From positions 3,051,501 to 3,115,500 of the forward strand of contig NZ_CP125380.1 of assembly GCF_034009455.1 (NCBI RefSeq): a stretch of 64,000 nt of DNA, given 5' to 3'. The position numbers were made by a program, and so were the translations under genes. Each line of letters starts with the position of its first letter. Position 1 is the first letter of the stretch. Shown here in pieces: positions 54,368 to 62,174 of the stretch. The DNA is from Pseudomonas sp. P5_109 (lineage in GTDB: Bacteria; Pseudomonadota; Gammaproteobacteria; Pseudomonadales; Pseudomonadaceae). The notes under the pieces were generated by a model. That model searched no databases. It saw only the letters and a list, made by a program, of their open reading frames with translations, and was not told the origin of the DNA.

Positions 54368-56368
54368 ATGACCACCGAATTAAAAGCTGCAACCGCAGAA
54401 CCAAGTCCTTGGGAACAAGCCACGTTGTTTATCAACGGCACGAAAGTGGAATGGGGGGCGGAACTCGTTTTGTTCCGCGGGCAGGAGAGCGAAGTGACAG
54501 TGGAAGCTCCACCCGCGATCGCCAGGGAGCTCAACCTGGGGCTGGCTGGCAATGGCGGATTGGAGCCTGTTGCGTCGCCGGAATTCGGCGCCTGGTTGGC
54601 TCCCGTCAATGGCAAGTTCCATTGGAAGATTAAGCCGGATGCAGGCAAGAGCGGACGTATCTCCCTGGTGTTTTTCAGCCGGGAAGTGGTGGAGTCGTGG
54701 GAGCACCGAAGCCTGGTGATCTCGAGCAACCTGGCGGATGAGGCAGACGTGAAGATTGACGGCGTCGCCGTGCCTCCCGGGGGGAATTGGTTTTTCCGGG
54801 GTACGGCGCAAACGGTGACGTTGACCCCTAAACCCAACAGTCCGCTGGCCGGCATTCCAGTCACCCTGACCTGTGCTATCAAAAGCGGCCTCGGTACCTC
54901 CGACGTGGTGAGTGCGCCGCCCTTTGGCCGTGAGCAAACCACGTATAGCTGGGCAGTAACCGGGGCAACCAGAAGTGGCACCTTCCAGTTGGCGGTGGCG
55001 GGTAAAGGCATGACCACACCGATTACCTTGGCTGTCAGCAAGTTGCTGTCGAGTAACCTGGCGGATGAGGTTGAGGTAAAGATTGGTGGGCAAAGTGTGC
55101 CTGCCAGTGGAAATGTATTCATAAGGGGGCAGGCTCAGGAAGTTACGTTGATCCCTAAGCCAGGCAGTCCGATCGCCGGACACAATATTACGCTGACTTA
55201 TAAGGTGTTACAGGGGCTATTCCAAGGCGATATACGAAGTGCACCGCCATTTGGGGGGGGAGGAGTTACAAACTGGAAGTGGCAGTTGACTGGATATACC
55301 AGAAGCGGCACCTTCGAAATTTCTGTGGTAGGGCAGGGAATGTCTACTCCAATAAAAATTGCGATCAGCAAGTTGCTTTCGAACAACCTGGCGGATGAGG
55401 CAGACGTGAAGATTGACGGCGTCGCCGTGCCCGCCGGGGGCAATTGGTTTTACCGGGGCAAACCGCAAACGGTGACGCTAACCCCCAAACCCAACAGCCC
55501 GCTGGCCGGCCTTCCAGTTACCCTGACCTGCGCAATCAAAAGTGGCCTCGATATCGCCAATGTGGTGAGTGCACCGGCCTTCGGCAGTGAGCCAACTACC
55601 CATAGCTGGGCAGTGACCGGGAACACCAAGAGCGGCACCTTCCAATTGGCCTTGTCGGGCAAGGGCATGACCACACCGATTACCCTGGCTGTCAGCAAGT
55701 TGCTGTCGAGCAACCTGGCGGATGAGGCAGATGTGAAAATTGCCGGCGCCGCCGTGCCCACCGAGGGCAATTGGTTTTATCGGGATCATGGTCGAATAGT
55801 GACGTTGACCCCCAAGCCCAACAGCCCGTTGGACGGCCTTCCGGTCACGTTGACTTGGGAAATCAAAAGCGGTCTCAGTGCCGGCAGCGTGGTGAGTGTA
55901 CCGGCCTTTGGTAGTGAGCAAACCACCTATAGCTGGGCAGTATTGGGGAGGGTACATAGCGGAACGTTCCAACTGGCATTGGTGGGTAAGGGCATGACCA
56001 CACCGATTACCTTGACCGTCAGCAAATTGGTATCGGGCGATCTGAGGGATGAAGTTGAGGTGAAGATTGATGGGCAAAGTGTGCCTGACAGTGGAAATGT
56101 ATTCATAAAGGGGCAGGCTCAGGAAGTTACGCTGGTTCCTAAGCGGGGCAGTCCGATCGCTGGACACAATATTACGTTGACTTGTCAGCTCTTACAGGGG
56201 CTATCCCAGGGCGATATTCAAAGTGCACCGCCATTTGGAGGGATAGGAGGACCCAATTGGCGTTGGCAGGTGACCGGATATAACAGAAGCGGCACCTTCC
56301 AGATTTCTGTGGTAGGGGCGGGGGGAGTGATTAATCCATTGAAAATTGCGGTCAGCAAGTTGATTTAG
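54368..56368 (+). CDS. Large protein of alternating Ig-like repeats, unknown function
   Basis: A 666-residue protein without signal peptide or membrane segment. After an N-terminal beta-rich domain (about 1-115) come five repeats of about 110 residues. Type A (starting SSNLADEADVKIDGVAVP, with NWF.RG..QTVTLTPKPNSPL) and type B (DEVEVKI.GQSVP.SGNVFI.GQAQEVTL.PK..SPIAGHNITLT) alternate as A-B-A-A-B. Type A copies are nearly identical in DNA, pointing to recent duplication or gene conversion. The TAG stop at 56366 corresponds to a Ser codon in other repeats, so the gene looks shortened by mutation. The ribosome site is AAAAGGAAACG. Function is unknown; Ig-like stacks suggest a binding or adhesion role. 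Confidence 0.7.
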   Translation: MTTELKAATAEPSPWEQATLFINGTKVEWGAELVLFRGQESEVTVEAPPAIARELNLGLAGNGGLEPVASPEFGAWLAPVNGKFHWKIKPDAGKSGRISLVFFSREVVESWEHRSLVISSNLADEADVKIDGVAVPPGGNWFFRGTAQTVTLTPKPNSPLAGIPVTLTCAIKSGLGTSDVVSAPPFGREQTTYSWAVTGATRSGTFQLAVAGKGMTTPITLAVSKLLSSNLADEVEVKIGGQSVPASGNVFIRGQAQEVTLIPKPGSPIAGHNITLTYKVLQGLFQGDIRSAPPFGGGGVTNWKWQLTGYTRSGTFEISVVGQGMSTPIKIAISKLLSNNLADEADVKIDGVAVPAGGNWFYRGKPQTVTLTPKPNSPLAGLPVTLTCAIKSGLDIANVVSAPAFGSEPTTHSWAVTGNTKSGTFQLALSGKGMTTPITLAVSKLLSSNLADEADVKIAGAAVPTEGNWFYRDHGRIVTLTPKPNSPLDGLPVTLTWEIKSGLSAGSVVSVPAFGSEQTTYSWAVLGRVHSGTFQLALVGKGMTTPITLTVSKLVSGDLRDEVEVKIDGQSVPDSGNVFIKGQAQEVTLVPKRGSPIAGHNITLTCQLLQGLSQGDIQSAPPFGGIGGPNWRWQVTGYNRSGTFQISVVGAGGVINPLKIAVSKLI

Positions 56369-58772: not shown

Positions 58773-59738
58773 TCAGTGAGCGACCTGGCTCAGGGTCGGC
58801 GGCAAGTCGATCGGCGTCAGCACCGGTTGATTGGAGAAAAACGCCACGAGGTTCTTGCCCACCAGTTCGACGGTGCCCTGGGTGGCTTCCGGGGACAGCC
58901 CGGCGACATGCGGCGTGAGGATCACGTTGCTCAGGGTCTTGAGCGCATCCGGCACTTGCGGTTCGTGATCGAACACATCCAGTGCCGCACCGGCGATCCG
59001 GCGTTGCTCCAGGGCGATGATCAGGTCAGCGGTGGCAATCACGCTGGCCCGGGCGATGTTGACGATAAACCCCTTGGGACCCAACGCGTCGAGCACCTGG
59101 CGATTGATCAGGTGCTTGGTGCCCAGGCCGCCGGGCGTGGCGACGACCAGGAAGTCCGAGGCGCGCGCCAGTTCGGTCGGGGTCGAGCAGAACGTGTAGG
59201 GCACATCGCTGCGATGCTGGCGGTTGTGGTAGCTGATGCTCATGTCGAACCCGGCGCCGGCGCGTTTGGCGATGGCCATGCCGACCGCGCCGAGGCCGAG
59301 GATGCCCAGGCGTTTGCCGGCGAGGGAAGGGCGCATGATCTTCGGCCACTCGCCGCGCCGTACGGCGGCATCACAGCGGGGTACGTCGCGCACCAGCGAC
59401 AGCAGCAGCGCCATGGCATGGTCGGCGACGGACGAGGCGTTGACCCCGGCGCCGTTGGTGACGGTGATACCCCGGTTGGCGGCGGCCTGCAGGTCGACGT
59501 GTTCATAGCCGGCGCCGATCACGCAGATGATCCTGAGTTTGGGCAGCGCGGCGATTTCATCGGCATACAACCCTAATGGGCCGCGGGTGAGGACAGCATC
59601 GATCTGTCCGGCATGGCGGGCGATGGCTTCGGCGCGCTCGGCGGGCGTCGGGGCCAGAATCAGGTGAAAGCCCTGATGCTCGAGGATTGGCAGGTAATCA
59701 TTGATGGTTTCAACCAGTACCAGAACGGTTACAGGCAT
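58773..59738 (-). CDS. D-isomer-specific 2-hydroxyacid dehydrogenase
   Basis: A 321-residue enzyme of the GyaR/hydroxypyruvate reductase type. Nucleotide motif LGILGLGAVGMAIAKRA (GxGxxG), catalytic Arg in NIARASVI, Glu in DVFDHEPQVP and His in TPHVAGLSPEA. It probably reduces glyoxylate/hydroxypyruvate or 2-ketogluconate. Its substrate cannot be read. Confidence 0.88.
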   Translation of the reverse strand: MPVTVLVLVETINDYLPILEHQGFHLILAPTPAERAEAIARHAGQIDAVLTRGPLGLYADEIAALPKLRIICVIGAGYEHVDLQAAANRGITVTNGAGVNASSVADHAMALLLSLVRDVPRCDAAVRRGEWPKIMRPSLAGKRLGILGLGAVGMAIAKRAGAGFDMSISYHNRQHRSDVPYTFCSTPTELARASDFLVVATPGGLGTKHLINRQVLDALGPKGFIVNIARASVIATADLIIALEQRRIAGAALDVFDHEPQVPDALKTLSNVILTPHVAGLSPEATQGTVELVGKNLVAFFSNQPVLTPIDLPPTLSQVAH

Positions 59739-59871
59739 GCTTGGCTCCCTGTGGGCATCGAAAAATCGGCTCGGACGTGATGTGAGATTGCTGATTCAAG
59801 GATAGCTTGGCAACCGCCAGCTGCGGTCAGTGTAGGAGCCTGCGGACCTTTATTGCGGCGTTTACGTCCCT

Positions 59872-60806
59872 TGTAGGAGCTGGCTTGCCAGCGATGGTCG
59901 TTAACGATAACGCGTATGAGCTGGATAAGCGCGGCGCGTTGGAGTCCATCGCCAGCAAGCCGGCTCCTACAGTTTGGCGTTCACATCATTTCGACCAGTA
60001 CGCGGTCTCCTGTAGGAGCTGGCTTGCCAGCGATGGTCGTCAACGATAACGCGTGTGGACAGGATAAACGCGGCGCACTGGAGTCCATCGCCAGCAAGCC
60101 GGCTCCTACAGTTTGGCGTTCACACTATTTCGACTGGAACGCAGTCCCTTGTAGGAGCTGGCTTGCCAGCGATGGTCGTGAACGATAACGCGTGTGACCT
60201 GGATAAACGCGGCGCACTGGAGTCCATCGCCAGCAAGCCGGCTCCTACAGTTTGGTGTTCACATCATTTCGACTCGGACGCGGTCCCTTGTAGGAGCTGG
60301 CTTGCCAGCGATGGTCGTTAACGAAGACGCGTGTGAATTGGATAAACGCGGCGCACTTGAGTCCATCGCCAGCAAGCCGGCTCCTACAGTTTGGCGTTCA
60401 CACTATTTCGACTGGAACGCGGTCCCTTGTAGGAGCTGGCTTGCCAGCGATGGTCGTTAACGAAGACGCGTATGAACCGGATAAACGCGGCGCACTTGAG
60501 TCCATCGCCAGCAAGCCGGCTCCTACAGTTTGGCGTTCACACTATTTCGACTGGAACGCAGTCCCTTGTAGGAGCTGGCTTGCCAGCGATGGTCGTTAAC
60601 GATGACGCGTGTGAATTGGATAAACGCGGCGCACTTGAGTCCATCGCCAGCAAGCCGGCTCCTACAGTTTGGTGTTCACACTATTTCGACTGGAACCCGG
60701 TCCCTTGTAGGAGCTGGCTTGCCAGCGATGGTCGTTAACGATAACGCGTATGAATTGGATAAACGCGGCGCGTTGGAGTCCATCGCCGGCAAGCTGGCTC
60801 CTACAG
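59872..60806. repeat. Tandem array of seven 139-bp REPIN units
   Basis: Units begin at 59872, 60011, 60150, 60289, 60428, 60567 and 60706, exactly 139 bp apart. Each holds a REP (TGTAGGAGCTGGCTTGCCAG), a spacer with GGTCGT.AACGATAACGCG, an inverted REP, and a 39-bp linker (TTTGGCGTTCACA.CATTTCGAC). The last unit lacks the linker and runs into the tetR stop codon. Units differ by a few substitutions only. A degenerate REP fragment at 59831 precedes. Every unit keeps an open frame of 88 codons, a by-product of the repeated sequence rather than a gene. Confidence 0.93.
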
Positions 60807-61400
60807 TTTCCCGGGATTGCGGGGCATGAGAGCGGCGCGTGCGGCTTCGAGAATCTCGTCCGACAACGGATCGCCGCGGGTGGCCCGGGACAGCATCAGC
60901 GCACCGAACATCAACGAGTACTGCACCAGCGCCTGCTGCCGTTTACTGGCTGCATCCTCTGTGTCCAGCAGCGTACCCAGGGAGTCGAGCAGGTTGTTCA
61001 GGCCTTGCAGGTAGGTTTGGCGCAAACCGCTGTCGGCGGCCTCGTGGCACATGTCTCCGGCGAAGGCCACCACCGGGCAGGCGTCGCCCGGATTGTCCCG
61101 GCTTTCGTCGGACATATAGAGCTCGACCACGGCGCGATGAGCGGCGTCCTTGTTGTCATGCCCGGCCACCCGCGCTTGCCAGCGTTGCGCGGCCTGCTCG
61201 AAGGCCCGGCCACTGGCTTCCTGCGCCAGGGCTTCTTTGGATTCGAAGTGCCCGTAGAAGCCGCCGTGGGTCAGGCCCGCGGCGGCCATCACATCGACCA
61301 CGCTGATCCCGTGCAAGCCGCGTTCGCGAAACAGCCGCGTGGCGGCATCGACGATAGTCTCGCGGTTGAGGTCGGCTTGTTTACGGGAAACTCGGGGCAT
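60801..61400 (-). CDS. TetR-family transcriptional regulator
   Basis: A 199-residue TetR regulator with N-terminal HTH (ETIVDAATRLFRERGLHGISVVDVMAAAGLTHGGFYGHFESKEAL, about 13-57). The C-terminal domain (HRAVVELYMSDESRDNPGDACPVVAFAGDMCHEA) is of the type next to oxidoreductases or efflux genes. ATG 61400 (MPRVSRKQAD) is used. Its last codons and stop TAG come from the last REP of the array, so the C-terminus was probably reset by REP insertion. It follows the tautomerase gene on the same strand. Confidence 0.87.
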   Translation of the reverse strand: MPRVSRKQADLNRETIVDAATRLFRERGLHGISVVDVMAAAGLTHGGFYGHFESKEALAQEASGRAFEQAAQRWQARVAGHDNKDAAHRAVVELYMSDESRDNPGDACPVVAFAGDMCHEAADSGLRQTYLQGLNNLLDSLGTLLDTEDAASKRQQALVQYSLMFGALMLSRATRGDPLSDEILEAARAALMPRNPGKL

Positions 61401-61812: not shown

Positions 61813-62174
61813 GGGAAGACTCCAGAAGGAATGCAGGTGGGTTAAAAATACATGATGGTAGACCTTTATCAAGTGCGAACTGCTCTTTGGCGATCAAGTG
61901 CCCGCACCGCAATCACCGCATTCCTTTGTAGGAGCCGACTTGCCGGCGATGGGGCCGTGGAACATGGCGGTAATCTTGAGGTCGCCATCGCTGGCAAGCC
62001 AGCTCCTACAGGGGTTTTATCGGCAACCTGGTACCACCGTTCCTCACCTAAGTCTTTGCTTCTGCTCACTAATCCCCCAGAATGCCGCCCCTGTTTCGGC
62101 CGGGCGCTGCCTGTCGGGTATTCCGACGCGTCCTGGCCGGGTGGCAAGTGACCGGAATGTGGAGATCCCACCGG
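61813..62174. other. 362-bp intergenic region with REPIN, upstream of the SdaC-type gene
   Basis: Divergent promoter region. It holds the REPIN at 61927-62010; the remainder is the leader of the transporter gene, with a small GTCGG/CCGAC stem near 62115. I see no further gene. Confidence 0.5.
61927..62010. repeat. REPIN (TGTAGGAGCCGACTTGCCGGCGATGG type)
   Basis: An inverted pair with unequal arms (left ..CCGACTTGCCGG.., right ..CTGGCAAGCCAG..), spacer about 33 bp without the shared core. Confidence 0.85.

Follow-up and report, generated by a model that had tools for sequence, protein, structure and literature searches.

The tandem REPIN array beside a tetR gene of Pseudomonas sp. P5_109 is one member of a genome-wide array family, probably built by cassette exchange and local amplification

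Introduction

How does an exactly phased array of seven REPINs come to lie between two genes of a Pseudomonas chromosome, and was its repeat unit made there? The array was found in a stretch of 64,000 nucleotides from Pseudomonas sp. P5_109, which is called the window here. A preliminary description of the sequence had proposed that REPINs are normally dispersed as single pairs, that this array arose by recent tandem amplification together with its non-REP linker, and that it may be a hypervariable locus, a structured RNA or a supercoiling/gyrase site.

In P. fluorescens SBW25, REPINs form 16 tandem clusters that include their flanks, a pair of near-identical REP arrays occurs at distant sites, and RAYTs adjoin REPIN clusters, according to the available text of Bertels and Rainey (2011, PMC3116915). 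In the same text, ordered REPIN clusters imply a second mechanism beyond REPIN movement, which was left open. According to the available portion of PMC3733652, large REP clusters mostly consist of units repeated in tandem together with the DNA beside them, and a link between amplification and clustering in Pseudomonas is suggested there.

Results

Structure of the window array

The window array has a tetR gene on one side and a D-2-hydroxyacid dehydrogenase gene on the other, each on the minus strand. It consists of seven 98-bp REPINs and six 41-bp linkers at 59873-60804, with a step of exactly 139 bp (unit starts 59873, 60012, 60151, 60290, 60429, 60568 and 60707). Tandem Repeats Finder called 59866-60809 with a period of 139, 6.8 copies, 92% matches and 0% indels. 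This call and the alignment of the units bore out the seven phased units of the preliminary description. The features are listed below.

58773..59738, minus strand: D-2-hydroxyacid dehydrogenase gene (PF00389/PF02826), the neighbour downstream in the direction of transcription
59866..59872, plus strand: possible remnant of the element's left end, GTCCCTT, before REPIN 1
59873..59970, plus strand: REPIN 1 (REP GTAGGAGCTGGCTTGCCAGCGATGG, spacer, inverted REP)
59971..60011, plus strand: linker 1, 41 nt
60012..60109, plus strand: REPIN 2
60110..60150, plus strand: linker 2, rare variant CACACTATTTCGACTGGAAC, also found in one linker of the 6.11-Mb array
60151..60248, plus strand: REPIN 3
60249..60289, plus strand: linker 3
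60290..60387, plus strand: REPIN 4, folded; 1 difference from REPIN 6
60388..60428, plus strand: linker 4, rare variant
60429..60526, plus strand: REPIN 5
60527..60567, plus strand: linker 5, identical to linker 2
60568..60665, plus strand: REPIN 6
60666..60706, plus strand: linker 6, rare variant
60707..60804, plus strand: REPIN 7, adjoining the flank that the sister species G256 has beside its single REPIN
60805..60821, plus strand: remnant of the element's right end AGTTTCCCGGGATTGCG, joined to the tetR coding region
60801..61400, minus strand: TetR-family regulator gene (PF00440); the start codon is our choice

The linker measures 41 nt if the REPIN runs from GTAG to CTAC, and 39 bp, as first described, if the flanking T and A are given to the REPIN. 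The seventh unit has no linker after it. Pairwise differences between units were 1-9 over the first 101 unit positions and 0-9 over the last 38, which are the linker. A single one of 101 sites distinguishes unit 4 from unit 6, and linkers 2 and 5 are identical over the 38 positions compared. Of the 16 occurrences of the REP 25-mer (≤3 mismatches) in the window, 14 belong to the array; 100 shuffles gave a mean of 0.00. Two inverted REPs with the 5' tetranucleotide GTAG/GTGG make up each REPIN. The array also has the alternating REPs in tandem of a BIME-2, and its REPINs, repeated in tandem together with flanking sequence, fit an SBW25-type cluster. A CRISPR reading was ruled out, since the linkers are near-identical instead of being unrelated spacers.

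The array reaches into the tetR gene. The GTAG of the last REP supplies the tetR stop codon, TAG. TetR itself ends in RNPGKL, six residues encoded by the 17-nt right end of the element, with one base of the final codon borrowed from the REPIN. In the related genome G021, which has no REPIN at this site, the end of tetR differs in sequence from the window copy.

Two other repeats were observed in the window. A lone, shorter REPIN (82 bp, with another spacer) lies at 61928-62009, beyond the gene upstream of tetR. Two 327-bp coding repeats with 80% matches lie at 55365-56029, in a 666-aa ORF (54368-56368).

A genome-wide family of tandem REPIN arrays

The genome was searched as one contig of 6,956,178 bp. 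A query of two array units gave 179 matches in this contig, and the REPIN core (≤3 mismatches) gave 387 matches genome-wide (245+142); the extragenic position of the core was verified for the window array, the last REP of which shares bases with the tetR stop codon. We examined 39 related loci, taken from the top-scoring candidates of a single query (40 of 523 were scored), so the numbers of arrays are lower bounds. At 37 of the 39 loci the REPINs stand in tandem (at least two at steps of ≤150 bp); L059 and L062 have no run of two intact REPINs at this distance. In total, 207 REPINs were recognised, 193 of them in 38 runs, and the longest run holds 11. The view that REPINs are normally single pairs thus fails for this REPIN type in this genome.

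The linker is also shared. A linker family of 41-42 nt, AGTTTGGYGTTCACATCATTTCGACYMGGACGCGGTCCCTT, occurs at 27 of the 39 loci, and 103 of the 104 linkers of 41 nt have ≤9 differences from the consensus. The remaining linkers measure 19-45 nt, and certain arrays mix linker types. Phased arrays of a 139-bp cassette (41-nt linker plus 98-bp REPIN) stand at dispersed loci, and the window array is one member of a large genome-wide family of tandem REPIN arrays. Of the earlier claim of recent amplification, the co-amplification of the linker is supported; the linker as a local, non-REP sequence is not.

Several further observations concern the loci. Among the matches listed, additional arrays lie outside the 39 loci at 2214276-2215157 (step about 122 bp) and 3514406-3516572 (step about 117 bp). 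In a map on which the loci are a sample and the positions have no verified origin, 29 of the 39 array loci fall within 2.70-4.52 Mb, a quarter of the map (Rayleigh p ~3e-6). An orientation bias by replichore was considered and rejected (26 loci on the plus and 13 on the minus strand, with no clear pattern by map half). The junction of ...GAGTCCATAC with ATAGGAGC recurs beside REPINs at L047, L049, L051, L056 and L063, where about 1.4 kb lies between REPINs; the inserted copy at L063 encodes an IS110-family transposase (PF02371/PF01548).

A proposed carrier element in terminator T-tracts

The flanks of many arrays are alike, with CTTTCACTGGTTTGGAGGTCACTTCATTTTCGACTCGGACGCGGTCCCTT on the left and AG(GTATTGCGTTATCGGTG)TTTCCCGGGATTGCGTGAAGAACC on the right. 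The outer ends CTTTCACTGG...GTGAAGAACC are common to many arrays and to single copies, and they lie in the T-tract of an intrinsic terminator. Single REPINs elsewhere are thus bounded by the same ends as the arrays. The ends may form terminal inverted repeats, but these span just about 10 bp, GGTTCTT(T)CAC and GTGAAGAACC, and the left ends are variable.

A run of T≥5 within 12 nt was found at 19 of 24 left-end matches, compared with 1.8% of 2322 nearby control positions. Five matches have no such run: L050, L060, where the T-run enters the pattern itself, and three that were judged chance matches (L043, L057 at 3874, L159 at 1608). Right ends were followed by T≥4 in 26 of 31 cases (control, 2.0% of 3100), 12 of which, from single-copy or new loci, were pre-selected because they were found by a pattern ending in TTTT. 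Among the right ends of array loci, which were not pre-selected, 14 of 19 had T≥4 within 9 nt. A hairpin of ≤-9 kcal/mol stood upstream of the T-run in 16 of 19 T-run cases, compared with 20% of 300 random 32-mers; this test used a different rule for matching left ends and shares 17 of its 19 cases with the T-run test above, and one case (L049 at 441) has no checked adjoining REPIN. Under this rule, 12 of 31 fuzzy left-end matches had no T-run; 11 were judged to be chance or IS matches and one (L050) to be real. The upstream hairpins vary in sequence, as expected if they are terminators of different genes.

Direct repeats between left and right flanks were scored in 22 copies, five of which were placed by hand (L174, L059, L041, L069, L073). 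The match score was 6.5, against 5.9 for swapped pairs, and 0.8% of 2000 permutations reached it; the T-rich flanks weaken this signal. It is small outside the T-tract, with long exact stretches in some copies (12 bp at L059, 9 bp at L041).

The T-runs, the terminator hairpins and the flank direct repeats together led us to read the carrier as MITE-like. It is short and dispersed and has defined ends, as MITEs do; coding potential was examined in the window copy. We infer a carrier about 175 bp long that bears a REPIN and uses terminator T-tracts as insertion sites. Because the window copy has neither the left end nor the T-tract, its membership rests on the linker, the REPIN and the 17-nt right end. 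Its outer ends have probably decayed, and on this sequence evidence the window array reads as a truncated descendant of the carrier element. Elsewhere in the 64-kb window no carrier ends were found at ≤3 mismatches. A plasmid search gave two records, which matched the REPIN part only. A search of viral contigs gave two matches, one of which is a well-kept copy of the element (L174), in contigs of 5.9 and 8.3 kb that are possibly host DNA.

Origin of the linker and probable exchange between loci

In our reading of the alignment, the linker is the start of the right end (AG) followed by the left part of the element (TTTGG...CCCTT), joined over a common GTTT. The linkers were compared with the 12 full-length left ends. 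The mean difference between linkers of different loci was 5.3, among the left ends it was 10.7, and between left ends and linkers it was 10.9. As many as 68 of 69 distinct linkers had a nearer match among the linkers of other loci than among these left ends, so the unit was probably not made locally. An earlier comparison with 23 left ends (5.2 for linkers, 20.9 for left ends, 17.9 between them) was dropped, because shortened left ends and the mis-anchored L038 had inflated the gap. The short left ends of L036, L057, L061 and L069 are without parts that are present in their own linkers.

Other comparisons were less one-sided. An array's own left end was closer to its own linkers by ≥2 positions in 2 of 10 arrays (L041, L060), and in the other eight, the distances of own and foreign linkers to it differed by no more than about 1.2 positions, in either direction. 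The L044 linker resembles its own right flank, and the L041 linker its own left end. A quick tree was built from 40-nt sequences; no clade that takes in every linker is free of left ends, and the smallest one includes 4 of the 12 (L041, L071, L151, L153), so a single origin of the linker is not proven.

Two linker types serve as markers. The variant CACACTATTTCGACTGGAAC, present in window linkers 2, 4, 5 and 6, recurs at 6.11 Mb. An 8-bp shorter linker makes up all five linkers at 5.36 Mb and three of six at 4.25 Mb. Both point to exchange between arrays. Of 180 REPIN units, 105 have their nearest neighbours in the same array only, 51 in another array only, and 24 are ties. The mean difference is 5.6 within an array and 8.7 between arrays. 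Local amplification is therefore strong too, and the sequences argue that exchange and local amplification are both active in the arrays. The 139-bp unit was probably copied between loci and then amplified.

A model in which the array was inserted into a resident REPIN, so that first and last units pair, was dropped. Window units 1 and 7 do resemble each other, with 5 differences compared with means of 7.8 and 8.2 to the inner units. Where all three values were available, however, about a quarter of the arrays have a first-last distance smaller than both means, and a larger share have one that exceeds both.

Copy number in related genomes

At the window site there are seven REPINs here, one 5'-truncated REPIN in the sister species (G256), none in G021, and another sequence in G002. 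The suggestion that the locus is variable therefore holds between species. Collapse of a former array could also have left the single REPIN of G256, whose 5' edge coincides with a GCCAGC microhomology, a possible mark of a deletion.

Other loci show similar differences, and at several of them the sister species has one REPIN or none of the family where our genome has 7-11. L057 has seven units here, compared with one and a partial REP in G256 (L152), and L067 has eight, compared with one (L150), with the same REPIN remnant on the left in both. To either side, the flanks of both pairs are orthologous over >1.4 kb. In G256 and G021, the L052 flank ends at the start of the array, and G256 has neither the array nor about 540 bp beyond it. 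At L047, G256 carries a single REPIN of another family. Four REPINs in G256 and five recognised here were found at L064, and one in each genome at L153. P. laurylsulfativorans AP3_22 has two units with the 139-type linker at the L044 site, where our genome has another linker. At L055 and L069 the G256 contigs break inside the array.

Distribution in the genus

Of 398 sampled Pseudomonas genomes, two showed the linker pattern (2 mismatches): our own (128 places) and G256 (9 places). In a named collection, from which our own and near genomes were possibly left out, the exact pattern occurred in Pseudomonas sp. PB101 (one contig) and in AP3_22 (three contigs). A tandem pattern (REPIN end, short gap, whole REPIN) was present in 141 of 199 congeners; tandem REPINs are thus common. 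Our genome ranked second with 205 forward matches, behind G169 with 254; the pattern is exact and undercounts, and part of the matches are lone doublets. A genus count with GCTCCYAC-N(17-47)-GTRGGAGC (496 in our genome) was set aside as confounded, since many matches elsewhere are dispersed REP pairs.

Predicted folds and RAYT genes

Unit 4 is predicted to fold into one long hairpin on both strands (z -7.3 and -7.8), and unit 7 with its flank gave z -8.4 on the minus strand, in keeping with the long hairpin of a REPIN. The Rfam search returned five matches, all below the cutoff, and no functional RNA was found by it. Strong folding is a property of REPINs as such, which bears on the structured RNA of the preliminary description.

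A search for Y1 (RAYT) genes gave four matches in the genome, open genes among them. The RAYT at 6.61 Mb stands between two 98-bp REPINs with a similar core, and the one at 4.28 Mb has flanking REPs that share 25 identical nt with the inverted REP of the array. The genome thus holds RAYT genes with matching REPs, and either of these two could be the cognate gene. At L032 (1320-2075), a RAYT gene was observed between two near-identical REP-linker-REP blocks, like a REPIN spacer inside an array.

Discussion

We think it reasonably probable that the array belongs to a genome-wide REPIN family built by cassette exchange and local amplification, with a terminator-bound carrier. In the proposed sequence of events, a non-coding, REPIN-bearing element of about 175 bp would insert at terminator T-tracts. 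The linker would then come from a duplication in which the GTTT microhomology connects the right side of the REPIN (AG-TTT) with the element's left part (TTT-GGAGGTCAC...). The cassette may be copied from array to array by homologous recombination, gene conversion or movement of multimers, and the length of each array would shift by unequal recombination or by slippage at hairpins. In the window copy, the outer ends would have decayed, and the array would now stand on the tetR stop codon. A more far-reaching reading, which we offer tentatively and hold to be somewhat less probable than not, is a composite mobile element of one Pseudomonas lineage: a REPIN in a terminator-T-tract element, with satellite-like core arrays homogenised by exchange of linker-REPIN cassettes.

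Two other routes to the same arrays were weighed. Each array may have been made purely locally, the REPIN and its own flanks being duplicated by slippage or unequal crossing-over, and the other arrays arising independently through the same microhomology. The greater likeness of units within arrays than between them, the near identity of units 4 and 6 and of linkers 2 and 5, the resemblance of the L044 and L041 linkers to their own flanks, and the lack of a clean linker clade all agree with this. They do not explain why one linker family stands at 27 of 39 loci with 68 of 69 linkers closest to a linker elsewhere, why four loci have left ends without parts that their own linkers hold, or why the rare variant of units 2, 4, 5 and 6 recurs at 6.11 Mb and the 8-bp shorter linker is shared by the 5.36-Mb (5/5) and 4.25-Mb (3/6) arrays. 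We therefore consider purely local amplification unlikely. A doubtful candidate, to which we give slightly more credit, is a RAYT transposase that moves REPIN-linker-REPIN multimers directly in single-stranded form, with no need of an outer element. Open RAYT genes flanked by matching or similar REPs or REPINs at 4.28 and 6.61 Mb would suit it. Against it stand the conserved outer ends, which extend far beyond the REPIN and terminate at T-tracts with direct repeats; transposition of the IS200/IS605 type is not known to produce a target duplication.

A host function was also considered, either gyrase or nucleoid binding like that of BIME-2 or protection of the 3' end of the tetR RNA. The very stable hairpins on both strands of unit 4 and the crowding of loci within 2.70-4.52 Mb were counted for it; the varying copy number and presence among related species at the compared loci, and the lack of an Rfam match above the cutoff, count against it. 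By analogy with BIME-2 such a role is imaginable, and we give it a small chance. It is not needed to explain the array, which is most likely selfish or neutral. That the array is an assembly artefact is very unlikely, and we see hardly any room for it: the draft assembly of G256 has contig ends at some arrays, but our own assembly is one contig with individually different units, arrays are complete within contigs of relatives, and the assemblies of two named relatives have arrays with this linker.

E. coli BIMEs consist of another REP class and belong to another host than the window array. Tandem inverted REP pairs with linkers, as found here, are described for BIME and BIME-2 in the available text of PMC8266576 and PMC3686654. 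Closer in host are the ordered clusters of SBW25, the largest of which holds four REPINs in the available text of PMC3116915, compared with up to 11 per run here; set against those clusters as described there, the arrays here have one linker family at 27 loci, a linker that resembles joined element ends, and a setting in terminator T-tracts. The clustered GTAG-1 REPs in the accessible portion of PMC3733652 are likewise dimers in tandem with flanking DNA; unlike here, that portion mentions neither a common linker nor exchange among arrays, nor a setting at terminators. Repeat family R6 of P. fluorescens Pf0-1 (177 bp, 59.09% G+C, 50 copies, 34-bp inverted repeats, in the available part of PMC2718517) is near the carrier in size, a comparison made by description only. 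Prokaryotic MITEs, as outlined in the accessible text of PMC10969869, are small, non-coding and dispersed like the carrier, and their short inverted ends and flanking direct repeats have possible counterparts in it; in contrast to them, the carrier bears a REPIN and would target the terminator T-tract. Tandem REPIN clusters are thus a known kind of structure. For the exchanged linker, the terminator-bound carrier, and MITE-borne or terminator-targeted REPINs, our searches of open-access literature gave no published match.

Conclusions

Some REPIN arrays break draft assemblies. Used as a tag, the linker suggests movement of units from one array to another, and growth of arrays at sites that hold a single unit in a sister species. 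With this tag evidence, the second mechanism of PMC3116915 becomes testable. The family provides a bacterial example of concerted evolution among dispersed tandem arrays, and terminator T-tracts, as landing sites, would account for the spread of such elements at little cost to genes.
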